Assembly (NCBI RefSeq): GCF_002210345.1
Contig: NZ_MWQI01000001.1
Coordinates: 1-64,000, forward strand
DNA length: 64,000 nt
Direction of reading: 5' to 3'
Origin: Fibrobacter sp. UWB4
Lineage (GTDB): Bacteria > Fibrobacterota > Fibrobacteria > Fibrobacterales > Fibrobacteraceae
Position numbers and translations under genes: made by a program. Below are positions 4,868 to 54,214 of this stretch, one piece after another; position 1 is the first letter of the stretch; each line of letters begins with the position of its first letter. The notes under the pieces are model-generated. The model did not search any database and was not told the origin of the DNA. It saw only the letters and a list, made by a program, of their open reading frames with translations.

Positions 4868-5446
4868 ATGTTTAAGAAAATACTTATTGCCATTGCTTGC
4901 GCGTCTCTTTTAGCTTTTGCTGCGGACGATCCGGTTTCTGTTGTAAAAAGCAAGGACGCAGAATTGCAGAACATCATCAAGAAGTCTAAACGTACCGCGA
5001 AAGAAACGGAACGCGTTAAGAGCTTGTTGAATGATTCCTTTGACTTTGCCCTCTTGGCCAAGAAGTCCTTGGCTGCAAGCGACTGGAAGGCCCAGGACGA
5101 AGCATCCCAGCAGAAGTTCGTGACGGAATTCCAGCGCATGGTCCGCAACTCCAGTGCAAACCGCCTTGAACTTTATCGCGCCGATTCCACGATTTACGAA
5201 CCGGCCAAGATGAAGGGAACGGACGATGCTCGCGTTGTGGCTCACTTGTGGAACAAGGGCAAGGAATCGGTGCTCGAATACAAGATGACACTTGTGAATG
5301 GCAAGTGGAAGGCTTGGGACTTGGTCATCGACGACCTTTCTACGGCCCGCAACTACAAGGAACAGTTCAGCAAGATTCTGAAAGACAAGAGCTTTGCCGA
5401 ATTGATCGACATTATCAGCAAGAAGGCTGACGAAGCCGAAAAGTAA
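4868..5446 (+). CDS. MlaC/Ttg2D-like periplasmic phospholipid-binding protein
   Basis: 192 residues from ATG 4868. An in-frame ATG exists at 4853, but AGGAG (4856-4860) lies between the two, at good spacing for 4868, which also begins a normal signal peptide (MFKKILIAIACASLLAFA). The mature part has the MlaC pattern: helical N-terminus, FDFALLAKKSL, FVTEFQRMVRNSS, VEYKM-type strand and the final WKAWDLVIDDLSTARNYKEQFSKIL block. MlaC shuttles phospholipids between outer- and inner-membrane Mla complexes; no mlaDEF genes lie in the window. It is followed by a TAATG overlap with the DUF2953-like gene, indicating coupling. Confidence 0.85.
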   Translation: MFKKILIAIACASLLAFAADDPVSVVKSKDAELQNIIKKSKRTAKETERVKSLLNDSFDFALLAKKSLAASDWKAQDEASQQKFVTEFQRMVRNSSANRLELYRADSTIYEPAKMKGTDDARVVAHLWNKGKESVLEYKMTLVNGKWKAWDLVIDDLSTARNYKEQFSKILKDKSFAELIDIISKKADEAEK

Positions 5447-6564
5447 TGGGCTTTTTTTCCTGGCTTTTTTGTGCAATTCTCGTTGTAGCGCTTGTGCTAC
5501 TGCTTTTCCCGTTTTCGTTTCGGATTGATTTCGAGGCCGGGGAGCGCGGTGTGCGGGCGCTTTTCTTTTTTTTCAAGAAGAAAATTTACGAGTACGAGAA
5601 GAAGTGGAAGGAAGAAGTCGGCAGTAAGGAGCTGGCGGTTGAAGGAGACGACAAATGCGTAGATCGAGAGTCGCGACCAAGCTCGCTTGGGCATGACCGA
5701 GATCAGCATTTGGGACAAGAGCGAAGCGATTGTCCAAAGACGAGAGACGAGAAACTAGATGCGCCGCCGACTGAAGCGGTTGCGAAAAAGCCTACTGAAA
5801 CACCTAAGACGGAACCGATGGATGCTCCGGCAGGGACTGAATTAGGAATTAAAAATCCTCAGGATTCGTCATTGCGAGCCGAAGACACCCCCGAAAAGCG
5901 AGAGTCGCGACCAAGCGAGCTTGGGCATGACCGAGCCCAAGGGGGTGGGGCTGTGACCCATCCAGTAAAGTCTAGCGCAAGCAGCGAGAGTGCGCATCCT
6001 GTGGAAGTAAAATCTTCGCCTGTAGTTGAAGTTTCTTCTGATGCAAAAGCTGCGGAATCCGAGAAGCCCGATGATGAAAAAAACGCCGAAGATAAAAAGC
6101 CGAAAAAGGAAAAGCGCAAGCTTTCGGACCGTGAATTTTGGACCATCATTTTGACGCCGGATCTTGATGCTAGGGCGTTCAAGTACATTCTGAAAATTTT
6201 GAAGTCGGCGCTTACGCTCTTCCGTGTGCGCTTTAGCGATTGCTTTGTCGAGGGCATCCGCACGGATTACCAGACCATGGGCTATATTGCTGCGGTGAAC
6301 GGATTCTTGAAGGCGTACCCGTACGTTGGCGATTGGGACTTGAGAATGGACTGGTGTAACGAAAAGGAACTCCGCGCAGTTGGCTCGGTTCGCTTGAACA
6401 TTACGTTGCTCCGCATTTTCTGCTTTACTTTGGAAACGCTTGTGCTGGCTGGAATTTTGGCGTTTAGCTTTTGGCGCCGTCGTGCACATGTGATTAAAAC
6501 AAATGAACTCCCGCAACTCGGATTTATCCGCAGGCGGATTCTTGAATTTATTTTGGAGGACTGA
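5446..6564 (+). CDS. DUF2953-like membrane protein with in-frame repeat insertions
   Basis: A 372-residue protein. An N-terminal membrane segment (residues 3-23) is followed by FRIDFEAG..., and the C-terminal part (about 225-345) resembles DUF2953 (TDYQTMGYIAAVNGFL and a strand-rich end). A second hydrophobic segment lies near 325-340. Between about residues 55 and 195 the protein is low complexity, and this part is coded by dispersed repeats: a palindromic element at 5650-5716 (peptide DRESRPSSLGHDRDQHLG), heptad repeat at 5737-5758 and a second palindrome at 5886-5947 (peptide RESRPSELGHDR). The repeats keep the frame. The gene overlaps mlaC and the pseudouridine synthase gene by one base each (TAATG, TGATG). 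Function unknown. Confidence 0.6.
   Translation: MGFFSWLFCAILVVALVLLLFPFSFRIDFEAGERGVRALFFFFKKKIYEYEKKWKEEVGSKELAVEGDDKCVDRESRPSSLGHDRDQHLGQERSDCPKTRDEKLDAPPTEAVAKKPTETPKTEPMDAPAGTELGIKNPQDSSLRAEDTPEKRESRPSELGHDRAQGGGAVTHPVKSSASSESAHPVEVKSSPVVEVSSDAKAAESEKPDDEKNAEDKKPKKEKRKLSDREFWTIILTPDLDARAFKYILKILKSALTLFRVRFSDCFVEGIRTDYQTMGYIAAVNGFLKAYPYVGDWDLRMDWCNEKELRAVGSVRLNITLLRIFCFTLETLVLAGILAFSFWRRRAHVIKTNELPQLGFIRRRILEFILED
5650..5716 (+). repeat. Intragenic palindromic element, copy 1
   Basis: Outer arms CAAATGC and GCATTTG and inner flanks CGAGAGTCGC...ATGACCGAG enclose a small hairpin (CCAAGC-TC-GCTTGG). The same flanks and outer arms occur on the opposite strand at 52896-52960, inside another coding region and in the corresponding reading frame. 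Confidence 0.75.
5886..5947 (+). repeat. Intragenic palindromic element, copy 2
   Basis: The same core flanks (GAGAGTCGC...ATGACCGAG) and central hairpin (CCAAGC-GA-GCTTGG) as copy 1, but with different outer arms that are still complementary (CACCCCC / GGGGGTG). It lies in frame in the same gene. Confidence 0.7.
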
Positions 6565-7864: not shown

Positions 7865-9088
7865 ATGTTGAAGATTGATAATTTGCCTAAAAAGGTCCGT
7901 TTTAATCTCCGAAACAAGGAGATTTTCCCCAATACGATTCTCAGTCCGATGGATGGAGTGACCGATGCTCCGTTTCGGCGGCTTTGCAGGGTGCTTTCGG
8001 GCGACCGCATGGGACTTTTGGTTTCTGAGTTTGTTCCGACGGATGGCGATGCCGTGTTCAACCCGGATGGACATAAGCAGCTGAAGTTTTTTCCGGAAGA
8101 GCGCCCGTTTGGTGTGCAGATTTTTGGGCGTTTCCCGGACCGTATGGCGGCAGCAGCTGGCAAGATTGCCGAGCGTTATCACCCGGAATTCATCGAAGTG
8201 AATGCGGGGTGTCCGGCGCCGAAGGTGGCGGGCAAGGGGAGCGGTTCTGGACTTTTGCGGGACTTGCCGCGTTTGCAAGAGATTCTGCACGATGTGAAGG
8301 CGGTTTTGGACGCAAAGACGCCGGAGATTCCGCTCACGCTTAAGTGCCGTATTGGCTGGGACGACGATAGCATTAACGTGATGGAAACGCTCAAGATCGC
8401 CGAGGGCGAGGGCGTTGAAATGCTCACGGTTCACGGTCGTACGCGTTTGCAGGGGTATAACGGCCTTGCAAACTGGGACTGGATTGGCAAAGTAGCCGCT
8501 GCGGCGAAGATTCCTGTGATTGGAAATGGCGATGTGAATAGCGTCGAATGCGCACGCGAACGCATCAACACTTACGGCGTTTCGGGCGTGAGCATTGGGC
8601 GCGGGGCGATGCATAACCCGTGGATTTTCGGGCAAATTGCAGATGCATGGGAAGGTCGCGAAAAGCATGTGATAACCGCGCAAGAAGCACTTGATGTGTT
8701 CCCGCTCTATTACAAGTTTAAGATTGAGGATGGGGCGACGGAAATGAATGCGATGGGCCGTATGAAACAGCTCGCCGCGAGACTGTGCAAAGGTTTTTGT
8801 TTAGAAGAGAGACGAGAGACGAGAGACGAGAGAGAAAACCGTTCCGTCATCCTGAACGGAGTGAAGGATCCAGTGCGTTTTGACGGTGTTCAAGAGAGCG
8901 ATAATGTCGCGATGTCGGTGCGGCAGGCGCTTTTGACGTGCCAATCGGCTGCGGAAATGCTCGATCAGGTTGAAAAGCTCAAGGACGGGATTGCCCGTGA
9001 AATGGTCTTTGAGCCGGAACGCCTCGTGAACCTCAACGGCGCCAAAGAAACTGAACTCAAGTTCGGTGATCAATTCAAAGGAAGATAA
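7865..9088 (+). CDS. tRNA-dihydrouridine synthase (DusB-like) with repeat-derived insertion
   Basis: A 407-residue protein with the Dus TIM-barrel signatures: LSPMDGVTDAPFRRL, the catalytic Cys in NAGCPAPKV (Cys116), LKCRIGWDDD, TVHGRTRLQGYNG and GNGDVNS, and SIGRGAMHNPWIF. Dus enzymes reduce uridines in the tRNA D-loop with FMN and NADPH. Typical members have about 330 residues. The excess is largely residues ~313-347, coded by a heptad repeat (8806-8836) and a dispersed repeat (8845-8874) that translates as SVILNGVKDPV, inserted in frame into the C-terminal helical domain. The helical domain resumes afterwards (VAMSVRQALLTCQSAAEML). DusB versus DusA subtype is not certain. Confidence 0.88.
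   Translation: MLKIDNLPKKVRFNLRNKEIFPNTILSPMDGVTDAPFRRLCRVLSGDRMGLLVSEFVPTDGDAVFNPDGHKQLKFFPEERPFGVQIFGRFPDRMAAAAGKIAERYHPEFIEVNAGCPAPKVAGKGSGSGLLRDLPRLQEILHDVKAVLDAKTPEIPLTLKCRIGWDDDSINVMETLKIAEGEGVEMLTVHGRTRLQGYNGLANWDWIGKVAAAAKIPVIGNGDVNSVECARERINTYGVSGVSIGRGAMHNPWIFGQIADAWEGREKHVITAQEALDVFPLYYKFKIEDGATEMNAMGRMKQLAARLCKGFCLEERRETRDERENRSVILNGVKDPVRFDGVQESDNVAMSVRQALLTCQSAAEMLDQVEKLKDGIAREMVFEPERLVNLNGAKETELKFGDQFKGR
8806..8874 (+). repeat. Composite repeat inside dus: heptad array plus TCATCCTGA repeat
   Basis: 8806-8836 is (GAGACGA)n in a 7-bp register. 8845-8874 is CGTCATCCTGA...GGATCCAGT, the reverse complement of the repeat at 13179-13209. Both are normally intergenic and here are translated in frame. 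Confidence 0.75.
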
Positions 9089-27250: not shown

Positions 27251-27537
27251 CCAACTACCCACCAACTACTATCTACTGCCTACTTGTAAATTCGCTACGC
27301 TCATTTACCAAATACTAGGCTCGGAAATGTCGGTGCGAGCACCGCCGCTTCTCTCGCCTTACGTATTTGTCCTACTTCCAGCTTCCTGCTGTCTACCTCC
27401 TATTGCTTACTTCCTACCGCCTACTTCTTACTTTTTTATTGCATTTTAAAAATGGGCGTGTCCGGTGCGAAAAAACAGCTTTTTCCTAAAGCTTCAACCG
27501 CTTACTTCTTACTTCCTACTTCCTACTTTCTACTATT
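27251..27537 (+). repeat. Three heptad-repeat blocks upstream of nuoB
   Basis: 27251-27286, 27370-27433 and 27500-27537 are each phased at 7 bp, with units such as CTACTTC, CTACCGC, TTACTTC and TCCTACT. Between them are small hairpins, e.g. GTAAAT...ATTTAC near 27285-27308 and CGGTG-CGAG-CACCG near 27336. No reading frame here resembles nuoA. Confidence 0.65.
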
Positions 27538-47821: not shown

Positions 47822-47859
47822 ACTGGATTCTTCGCGGCTATTCGCCACTCAGAATGACG
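47822..47859. repeat. TCATTCTGA-type dispersed repeat
   Basis: ACTGGATTCTTCG...CTCAGAATGACG, matching the ends of the repeat at 13047-13209. Confidence 0.6.
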
Positions 47860-47966
47860 TAGAAGCCGAGAGTAGCGAGAATGCTTGCATTCTCATTACC
47901 GAGGCGCCCCAGTCAAGCCTTGAAAAGGAATGACGTAGAAGCCGAGAGTAGCGAGAATGCTTGCAT
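47852..47966 (+). repeat. Two perfect 39-bp direct repeats
   Basis: 47852-47890 and 47928-47966 are identical (GAATGACGTAGAAGCCGAG...), offset by 76 bp. They overlap the end of the previous repeat. Confidence 0.8.
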
Positions 47967-50878: not shown

Positions 50879-51003
50879 ATGGAGGTGTTTGTAGAAAATT
50901 TCTTTTAGTTAAGGCGAGAATTATTCTTTAATAAGAGAAAAAAAGAAATCGTTTAGAGAATAAAGCGTCGGCCAAGGTATTGTCTTCGCAGTAGCGTGCA
51001 AAA

Positions 51004-51070
51004 CGAGAGTCGCGGGCGACTGCTTGCAGGCGCACATGACCGAGTGAAGCCGCTGACGCCGTAGGCGTCA
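51004..51070. repeat. Intergenic relative of the palindromic element
   Basis: 51004-51044 has the flanks CGAGAGTCGC...CATGACCGAG of the intragenic elements around a different centre. A perfect hairpin TGACGCC-GTA-GGCGTCA follows at about 51053-51069. This fills much of the 300-bp gap between 50879 and 51185; no gene is visible there. Confidence 0.6.
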
Positions 51071-51185
51071 ACTCCGAGCTGGGGCCCCGCCCGCATGAAG
51101 TTCTTCTTAAAAATCTATTTACAATCAATGACTTTTTAAAAAAGTATATTGATTTTATACACAACCTAAAATGGGAGGGTGAGCC

Positions 51186-52516: not shown

Positions 52517-54214
52517 TTACTGGATGCGGGCCGCAGAGGTAAGCGCAAATTTGCGGGTTGCCGTTTCGCATTCGGCGCGGACGTAGGCGAAACCGAGCGT
52601 TGCAACGGGGATGTCGGCGTGGTCGGGAGCCGCAACGAGACTTCCAATCATGACTTCTTCTTCGGGGGCGAGCTTGCCGTTTGGCTGTATGCGGCGCCCG
52701 TAAATGCGGATGTAGCGGAAACCGCCGCCAGTCTCTTTGTTGCTGCGGGCATGGAACGTGATACCGTTATCGTCGCGCTCCCACCAGAGGGCGGGACCGT
52801 CTGTGATGTAACAGTTGTCAGCGGCGAAAGCTGCGTTTATGTCGGCAAGGGTGAGCGGGAATTCTTGTTTTGCGTTACTTCCGACTTGGATTGATCCCAA
52901 ATGCTGATCTCGGTCATATCCATGCAAGCATGGATGCGACTCTCGATCTTCGCATTTGTCCGACTTCCGACTTCCTACTTTAATTACCGTGCGGACATTT
53001 CCGAATGTATGCGCGCGGGTGTGCTTGAGCGAGATGAGCGGCAGGTTTACGGCGGTCATGCTGTTCAAGTCGCCGTGGGCATCGTTTCCGCCGATGGGGA
53101 GTAGATAATTGCCTTTGCTTAATTCATTTATCCAAAATTCCCGGCCGAGCTTGAAACCTTCGTCGCGGATGCCGTTCCAGAATTGCAGCCCGCGAATCGA
53201 GTGCTTGTTTTTCAGTTGCAGATCTTCGGGCTTCCAGTAACCGCGGCGGAATACGAACTTTTCCAGGAGTCCCATTTGCTGGAACGGGTGTGCGGCAAAG
53301 CAGTGCGCTTCGGTCATGTTCAAAATTTGCTTGATGCTGCGCGTCGGTCTGTTTTCGAGCCAGTAGCGGCCGCAGTCGCCGAGTCCCGGGAGGTAACCTT
53401 CGGGGGCGAGGACAGTCATGTGCACGTTTTCGCCTTTGCTGTTCCCGGCAGATACTTCTTCGCCGGCGAGCATGAGCGGCATGTCGCCTCCGTTTTCGTC
53501 TTTCTTTGGAAGTGCCGCAATCTCTTCGCGAAGCTTTTGGAATCTAGGCACTGGCGAGTCGGCTTCTTTGGTGTAGTCCTCTTGTGTGAATGCAAAATCG
53601 TAAGCGTGGTCAGTGCAGTTCACAAAGTCGAGTCCGACAGCCTTGGCGGCAAGCTGCAACACTTCGGGCGTGGCGCCGTATTCCACATGGTCAGCGGAGT
53701 AGTGCGTGTGGCAGTGCATTTCGCCTGCGGCGTATCCGGGGGCGATAGGCGGCATCTCGTTCAAGATCTTGAAACGGAGCGGGACGGGTTTAAGTCTCGG
53801 CAGGTTCCAGCGCTCAAAAGTCTGTGTCTTGCCGTTGCGTTCTACGGTCAGCTTGCAGTGCGCTTCATATGCACCTGCCGGGATTTTTCCGAGCGCAATC
53901 GGAATGAATTTCATCTGCTCGCGGACCTCAATATTCAAGTCTTTGCAAATGACGATGTCCGGCTGTGGCACGTCTTGTGTTTGCTGCGCATCTTGTACCC
54001 GCGCTTTTAAAACGATTTCCGCATTTTTAATCGTTGTCGGGAAACGGTCGGCATCGCGCACGACAATCCAGAGGTAGGGTTCTACCCTTGGCACGAACTG
54101 GAATGGCGCATCGAAAATGATTTCGGGCCACGGCTTGTAAAGGAGCGACCAGGGTAGCTTGAACTTAAAATGCGTTTCGGCATAACGCAATTTTTCCCCC
54201 GGCCAAAAACTCAT
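52517..54214 (-). CDS. CehA/McbA-like PHP-domain metallohydrolase with repeat-derived insertion
   Basis: A 565-residue protein. The N-terminal ~170 residues are strand-rich. The PHP-type hydrolase domain starts at GEMHCHTHYSADHVEYG (metal-binding HxH), with NCTDHAYD, LMLAGEEVS, HCFAAHPFQ and LLPIGGNDAHGD supplying the other ligands. No signal peptide is seen. Residues ~410-446 (KVGSRKSDKCEDRES...YDRDQHLG) are coded by a heptad repeat plus the same palindromic element found in the DUF2953-like gene, inserted in frame, probably in a surface loop. Its ATG overlaps the stop of the upstream gene (TGATG). Substrate unknown. Confidence 0.8.
   Translation of the reverse strand: MSFWPGEKLRYAETHFKFKLPWSLLYKPWPEIIFDAPFQFVPRVEPYLWIVVRDADRFPTTIKNAEIVLKARVQDAQQTQDVPQPDIVICKDLNIEVREQMKFIPIALGKIPAGAYEAHCKLTVERNGKTQTFERWNLPRLKPVPLRFKILNEMPPIAPGYAAGEMHCHTHYSADHVEYGATPEVLQLAAKAVGLDFVNCTDHAYDFAFTQEDYTKEADSPVPRFQKLREEIAALPKKDENGGDMPLMLAGEEVSAGNSKGENVHMTVLAPEGYLPGLGDCGRYWLENRPTRSIKQILNMTEAHCFAAHPFQQMGLLEKFVFRRGYWKPEDLQLKNKHSIRGLQFWNGIRDEGFKLGREFWINELSKGNYLLPIGGNDAHGDLNSMTAVNLPLISLKHTRAHTFGNVRTVIKVGSRKSDKCEDRESHPCLHGYDRDQHLGSIQVGSNAKQEFPLTLADINAAFAADNCYITDGPALWWERDDNGITFHARSNKETGGGFRYIRIYGRRIQPNGKLAPEEEVMIGSLVAAPDHADIPVATLGFAYVRAECETATRKFALTSAARIQ
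52896..52982 (-). repeat. Intragenic palindromic element plus heptad repeat in PHP hydrolase gene
   Basis: On the minus strand GTAGGAA / GTCGGAA / GTCGGAC heptads lead into CAAATGC...GATCGAGAGTCGC, a perfect hairpin ATCCATGC-TT-GCATGGAT, then ATGACCGAGATCAGCATTTGGGA. Flanks equal those at 5650-5716; the hairpin differs on both arms. Confidence 0.8.

Follow-up and report, generated by a model that had tools for sequence, protein, structure and literature searches.

The window analysed here is the whole 64,000-nucleotide stretch from Fibrobacter sp. UWB4, and an open reading frame near its start contains two palindromic repeats. The gene encodes a membrane protein with a variable linker and has orthologs in 26 of 26 Fibrobacter genomes; no Pfam family scored above cut-off, leaving the DUF2953 identity proposed in a first-pass annotation without Pfam support. 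Direct reading of the sequence confirmed the claim of that annotation that both palindromes are real and share one frame, in which they are translated as RESRPSSLGHDR and RESRPSELGHDR. Copy 1 comprises CAAATGC (5652-5658), CGAGAGTCGCGACCAAGCTCGCTTGGGCATGACCGAG (5665-5701) and GCATTTG (5706-5712), and copy 2 comprises CACCCCC (5886-5892), CGAGAGTCGCGACCAAGCGAGCTTGGGCATGACCGAG (5899-5935) and GGGGGTG (5941-5947), with ends that resemble those of CGTC-REPs as defined by PMC3733652. Two further copies that had been placed near 51004 and 52896 were both present. The features of the window are as follows.

5446-6564, forward strand: open reading frame for the membrane protein with variable linker, host gene of two in-frame copies.
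5651-5735, forward strand: copy 1, class A; core 5665-5701 between outer arms CAAATGC/GCATTTG, with GGACAAGAGCGAAGCGATTGTCC as second hairpin at 5713-5735.
5867-5966, forward strand: copy 2, class B; starts with CGTCATTGCGAG and ends with ATCCAGT, with core 5899-5935 between outer arms CACCCCC/GGGGGTG and GGGCTGTGACCC as second hairpin.
8845-8874, forward strand: CGTC-REP-like repeat CGTCATCCTGAACGGAGTGAAGGATCCAGT that has no core, read in frame (VILNGVKDPV) within dus, the gene next door; included as related context.
27306-27370, reverse strand: class A copy, core 27320-27356, in which xy has covaried (GAAGC..ATTTC).
47853-47966, forward strand: copy of class IV (AATGAC), core 47867-47903, in which xy is TA/TA.
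50965-51097, forward strand: class C unit GCGTCGGCC..CCCGCATG, core 51004-51044; intergenic, with near-identical copies at other sites in the genome.
52895-52959, reverse strand: class A copy in frame in a PHP-type protein, core 52909-52945; gene 52517-54214, reverse strand.

The dus gene (tRNA-dihydrouridine synthase, 7865-9088) contained in-frame (GACGAGA)n heptads together with the CGTC-REP-like repeat at 8813-8874, giving ERRETRDERENRSVILNGVKDPV. A partial second copy (47929-47966) lay right behind the class IV element and adjoined a GTCATTCTGAG..ATCCAGT repeat (47822, minus strand).

The core has the form CGAG-N-G-xy-GC-[stem-CTTG loop-stem]-AT-y'x'-C-CGAG, and its two CGAG motifs face each other as C-G, G.A, A.G and G-C. 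From the outside inward, the hairpin consists of an outer stem, one to three covarying pairs, CGAG/CGAG, one bulged base, a G-C pair, two covarying pairs, a step of G.T plus C.A (or T-A), a stem free to vary and a tip of the CTTG type, and is usually followed by a second short hairpin. The invariant residues (CGAG, G..GC, AT and CGAG) are mainly the mispaired positions. The xy dinucleotide was found as TC/GA, TT/AA, AT/AT, AA/TT, CC/GG, TA/TA and CA/TG; the GTC/GAC motif, previously taken as fixed, is therefore one of several covarying forms. Both the size and the variability of the element exceed what had been claimed.

Pairing was counted over 97 non-redundant copies. Watson-Crick pairs made up 296 of 336 inner-stem positions in 18-nt hairpins (shuffled mean 171, maximum 203), 281 of 297 in 22-nt hairpins (shuffled mean 160, maximum 200) and 174 of 194 xy positions (shuffled mean 83, maximum 103). 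For 49 copies aligned without gaps, covariation scored 0.499, compared to at most 0.113 when the partners were slid by 1-3 columns, and both sides had changed in 13 of 17 pairs. The tandem G.A was retained in 105 of 113 copies, with a closing pair of G-C in 94 and A-T in 11. The Watson-Crick parts thus covary while the mispaired parts are retained, and this retention of non-Watson-Crick pairs amid changing neighbours, together with the covariation, supports the selection on a fold that had been suggested from the two copies in the host gene.

Pairing could also be kept up without any selection. DNA template switching (quasipalindrome correction) is known to create and maintain hairpins that show compensatory changes (PMC8794818), the copies would then spread by gene conversion or ordinary recombination, and the shuffling of inner hairpins and outer arms among copies (L015 versus L020) agrees with such a passive origin. 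However, template switching would mend mismatches, yet the tandem G.A and the G.T step have survived between helices that vary, and the sequence-fixed positions are mainly mispaired ones; we therefore consider this explanation unlikely. The retention of mispairs suggests that the mispaired motif is what is recognised.

The strand that folds is probably the one carrying CGAG, because its G.A pairs would be C.T mismatches on the other strand: among 633 inner-stem pairs, the mismatches on the CGAG strand were G.A or A.G in 47 cases, G.T in 2, A.C in 2 and C.T in 3. Tandem G.A pairs and CUUG-type tips are classical RNA motifs. A hairpin that works in transcripts, as a 3' UTR stabiliser, a terminator-like element or a protein-binding site, would place selection on the RNA fold and make mobility incidental. 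These motifs favour such a role, and copy 1 folds strongly as RNA (z -5.2). Among 107 intergenic copies, placed with a simple gene finder, 43 lay between convergent genes, an excess that is also compatible with an RNA role in 3' ends. Against it, G.T (G.U), a frequent pair in structured RNAs, was nearly absent from the inner stems, both orientations were used (in codirectional gaps 26 copies on the strand of the genes and 17 on the other, and 21 copies in divergent gaps) with no strong bias relative to genes, and Rfam gave no match at gathering score other than tRNA in the window and 14 element loci. REPs thought to be transcribed often have G.T pairs, and in GTAG REPs these are taken as a sign of transcription (PMC3733652). 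Folding energies favoured neither DNA nor RNA and, for copy 2, neither strand. On balance the evidence leans towards a fold that acts as DNA, and we regard the RNA-level explanation as a minority one that still deserves some weight. No replication-strand bias was found (60 leading, 48 lagging), which runs against a lagging-strand model of single-strand transposition, as that model predicts a bias.

The repeat is abundant. The pattern CGAGNGTC-N10-40-ATGACCGAG gave 31 matches in the 3.58-Mb genome of the strain, compared to 0 for the reversed pattern, and a wider covarying core pattern with two positions free matched 6 sites of the window, xy being complementary in every one, and none in the reversed window. 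A genome-wide covariance-model search, a check proposed with the first-pass annotation, raised the count to about 116 copies (model R1), a lower bound as 150 of some 1,300 candidates were scored. Another diverged class A copy (CGAATGAAGC..) at C1:1039746 of the same genome (L141) fell outside the list of the model, and the copy count is for this reason also a lower bound. The covariance model found 8-120 copies per genome in 18 other Fibrobacter genomes and 0 in 12 genomes from the same order or class. In a sample of the phylum, copies were present in 67 of 67 Fibrobacter genomes and in 11 genomes of five related genera, with none outside the family Fibrobacteraceae; within this sample the repeats are restricted to that family. 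Carriage by phages was considered and set aside, the pattern matches in IMG/VR (32 + 9) having unpaired stems and looking like chance. A literature search, incomplete in its coverage, found no description of the Fibrobacter repeats.

Several outer classes surround the core. Class A has CAAATGC/GCATTTG arms and a second hairpin, often flanked by 7-bp repeats. Class B is made up of CGTCAT..GAAGAC, CAACTC/GAGTT, GGGGCTTGCCCC and ATCCAGT, and 26 of 33 copies kept both ends, GTCAT and ATCCA. Class C is represented by about a dozen near-identical copies with differing flanks, and the class IV core is preceded by AATGAC. The outer arms of copies 1 and 2 do differ, as had been noticed, but they look unrelated because one belongs to class A and the other to class B, and they are not a single arm pair that has drifted. 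Element parts recombine, since L015 and L020 have the inner hairpin in common and not the outer arms. Insertion of the core into pre-existing hairpins was rejected as a candidate, no coreless class A or B arms being seen in the sequence stretches examined (438 kb, a biased sample).

Comparison with relatives showed empty sites at 47853, 50990 and 52895. The 47853 site was empty in relatives L186-L188 and filled in L190, and the class C site was empty in relatives L186 and L235. At the site of the copy in the PHP-type gene, the nearest relative was without it and others had different inserts. Comparison of host-gene orthologs, which the first-pass annotation had also put forward as a check, showed that the nearest ones (G013, G001) were without both inserts, and the G018 ortholog had a core copy of its own (RESRPTESGMTE) elsewhere in the linker. 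Four genomes, from two genera, carry a class A unit of about 150 bp in surroundings that are unrelated. Two signs expected of a mobile element were thus observed, orthologous sites filled in some genomes and empty in others and a single unit at unrelated flanks. The fast evolution of linkers and flanks has left the junctions too diverged for clean borders, and no target-site duplication was seen at them. At the 3' end of a sodium/solute symporter-like gene (L263, L066 and L067, near position 1500), the C-terminal coding end was duplicated around an element, with QVDKTRLSDIKL and a stop before it and FDQVEHTRLSTLKLD and a stop after it, and the unit was near-identical in three species though the flanking codons differed.

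Copies were mostly intergenic, with some in frame within genes. In the genome of the strain in-frame copies were found in TruB, GluQ-RS, an EF-G-like GTPase, an SNF2 helicase and the PHP protein, and in relatives in MnmE, CoaBC, an RlmL-like methylase and GluQ-RS; the SNF2 and PHP labels come from reading of the sequence and the other host proteins have Pfam matches. Housekeeping enzymes gain 30-50 amino acids per insert. All seven clear intragenic copies of this genome detected by nucleotide search lay on the gene strand (7/7, a small sample); a same-frame bias among class A copies found via protein similarity reflects ascertainment and was left unused. In TruB the 48-residue insert separates residues whose counterparts in the Mycobacterium tuberculosis enzyme lie eight positions from each other (1sgv 91-99). 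Among about 20 other Fibrobacter TruB sequences the same loop was short in some and held other repeat-derived peptides in about ten, such as VILSEAERSRRIQCG, VIASEAKQSI and DERRETRDER, whose repeat origin was assigned by reading. Between WDGEVV and the next helix of TruB (L319-L343), about half of the Fibrobacter species examined had a differing repeat-derived insert. The PHP loop (L186-L252; window 52860-52975) contained different repeats by species, including long (DERRETR)n expansions. In GluQ-RS (glutamyl-Q tRNA(Asp) synthetase; L313 and L316), two species had different element classes at the same site. Judged from these sequences, some protein loops are insertion hotspots in which the repeat differs from species to species.

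Repeated insertion in the same TruB and PHP loops across species might mean that the inserts are retained as domesticated segments for the useful peptides they add. The inserted peptides, however, are not the same from one species to the next (class A, class B, heptad repeats, CGTC-REP-like), there are almost none in the nearest relatives, and disorder is predicted for the PHP insert (pLDDT < 50 at 416-451 in a low-confidence AlphaFold model), which makes such retention very improbable.

We propose, with a probability of roughly 0.6, that the repeats form one family, specific to the Fibrobacteraceae, of small palindromic elements that are mobile but non-autonomous. A protein acting in trans would recognise the mispaired motif, handle the folded strand with CGAG (probably in the form of single-stranded DNA) and spread copies. 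Genic copies would persist because they are in frame and sit in surface loops that tolerate extra residues, and the outer classes (A, B, C, IV and others) may be host repeats into or with which the same core was combined.

A search that covered Y1 transposases identified no mobilising gene. Short palindromes in high copy number and in clusters recall REP/RAYT systems or IS200-derived MITEs moved by a Y1 (HUH) transposase, and the genome of the strain does have two IS200-like TnpA genes. Its own IS200, however, is 719 bp long with unrelated ends, and no core occurred in the 18-20 kb examined around either copy. Y1 transposases were present in only 7 of 26 Fibrobacter genomes, with none in the high-copy genomes G005, G018 and G013. 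A RAYT-type system is unlikely because Y1 is absent from most Fibrobacter genomes and the IS200 ends are unrelated, and movement by a Y1 enzyme in either form is hardly to be expected. Within the mobile-element explanation, we tentatively suggest that the mispaired core could be the recognition site for a non-Y1 hairpin-mobilising enzyme of the Fibrobacteraceae that spreads single-stranded hairpins, among them those placed in frame in surface loops of housekeeping enzymes such as tRNA-modification enzymes, and perhaps moves CGTC-REPs too, a proposal that we hold as possible though doubtful.

In their way of working the repeats most likely resemble the Rickettsia palindromic elements and the CGTC-REPs. 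The Rickettsia elements are likewise palindromic repeats found both between genes and in frame in the open reading frames of housekeeping enzymes. The likeness suggested from the two copies holds at this level, in the in-frame insertion, the several palindromic families and the TruB copies; in-frame insertion is seen in TruB, GluQ-RS, MnmE, CoaBC, the EF-G-like, PHP and SNF2 proteins and the window gene. TruB is hit in Rickettsia conorii and also carries a copy in Fibrobacter. According to PMC3733652, RPE-1 lies in TruB of R. conorii, and in other bacteria, too, TruB genes are reported to carry REPs and RPE-1. The resemblance is one of mode of action; Fibrobacter belongs to another phylum, and its core is an invariant tandem G.A / G.T inside covarying stems.

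CGTC-REPs comprise CGTC-1 to CGTC-4, including dRS3, RPE-4 and RPE-6, and are defined by a CGTC/TGTC tag, AT first stem pairs, a CCA tail, an 8-9 bp stem and a 4-5 nt loop; like the Fibrobacter repeats, they show compensating stem variants and copies inside open reading frames, and no dedicated transposase is known for them (PMC3733652). Fibrobacter is absent from that paper. Fibrobacter class B keeps the corresponding GTCAT..ATCCA ends, whereas the core and classes A, C and IV are without the CGTC tag and the core hairpin, with 17 possible pairs plus outer arms, is longer. With GTAG REPs and REPINs associated with RAYT (TnpA-REP) the Fibrobacter repeats share more than 100 short, clustered and mostly intergenic palindromes, but they have neither the invariant GTAG foot nor a RAYT. 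Like MITEs (NEMIS, RUP, ERIC and others) they are non-autonomous, hairpin-forming and repeated; unlike them, they have ends that do not resemble the IS200 of the genome, the element compared, and no target duplication was seen at their diverged junctions. As a whole, the Fibrobacter family is not a CGTC-REP, a GTAG REP or an IS200 MITE.

Rickettsia is the best-known case of palindromes within protein reading frames, and they are now seen in a free-living rumen lineage with more than 100 copies per genome and many species that can be compared, in which covariation is sufficient to define the recognised positions. The recurrent inserts in the TruB loop, in a gene that is also hit in Rickettsia and other bacteria, make the mover of CGTC-type palindromes directly testable. 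The family also accounts for the odd peptides RESRPxxLGHDR, VILSEAERS and DERRETRDER that annotation pipelines will meet in many Fibrobacter proteins.
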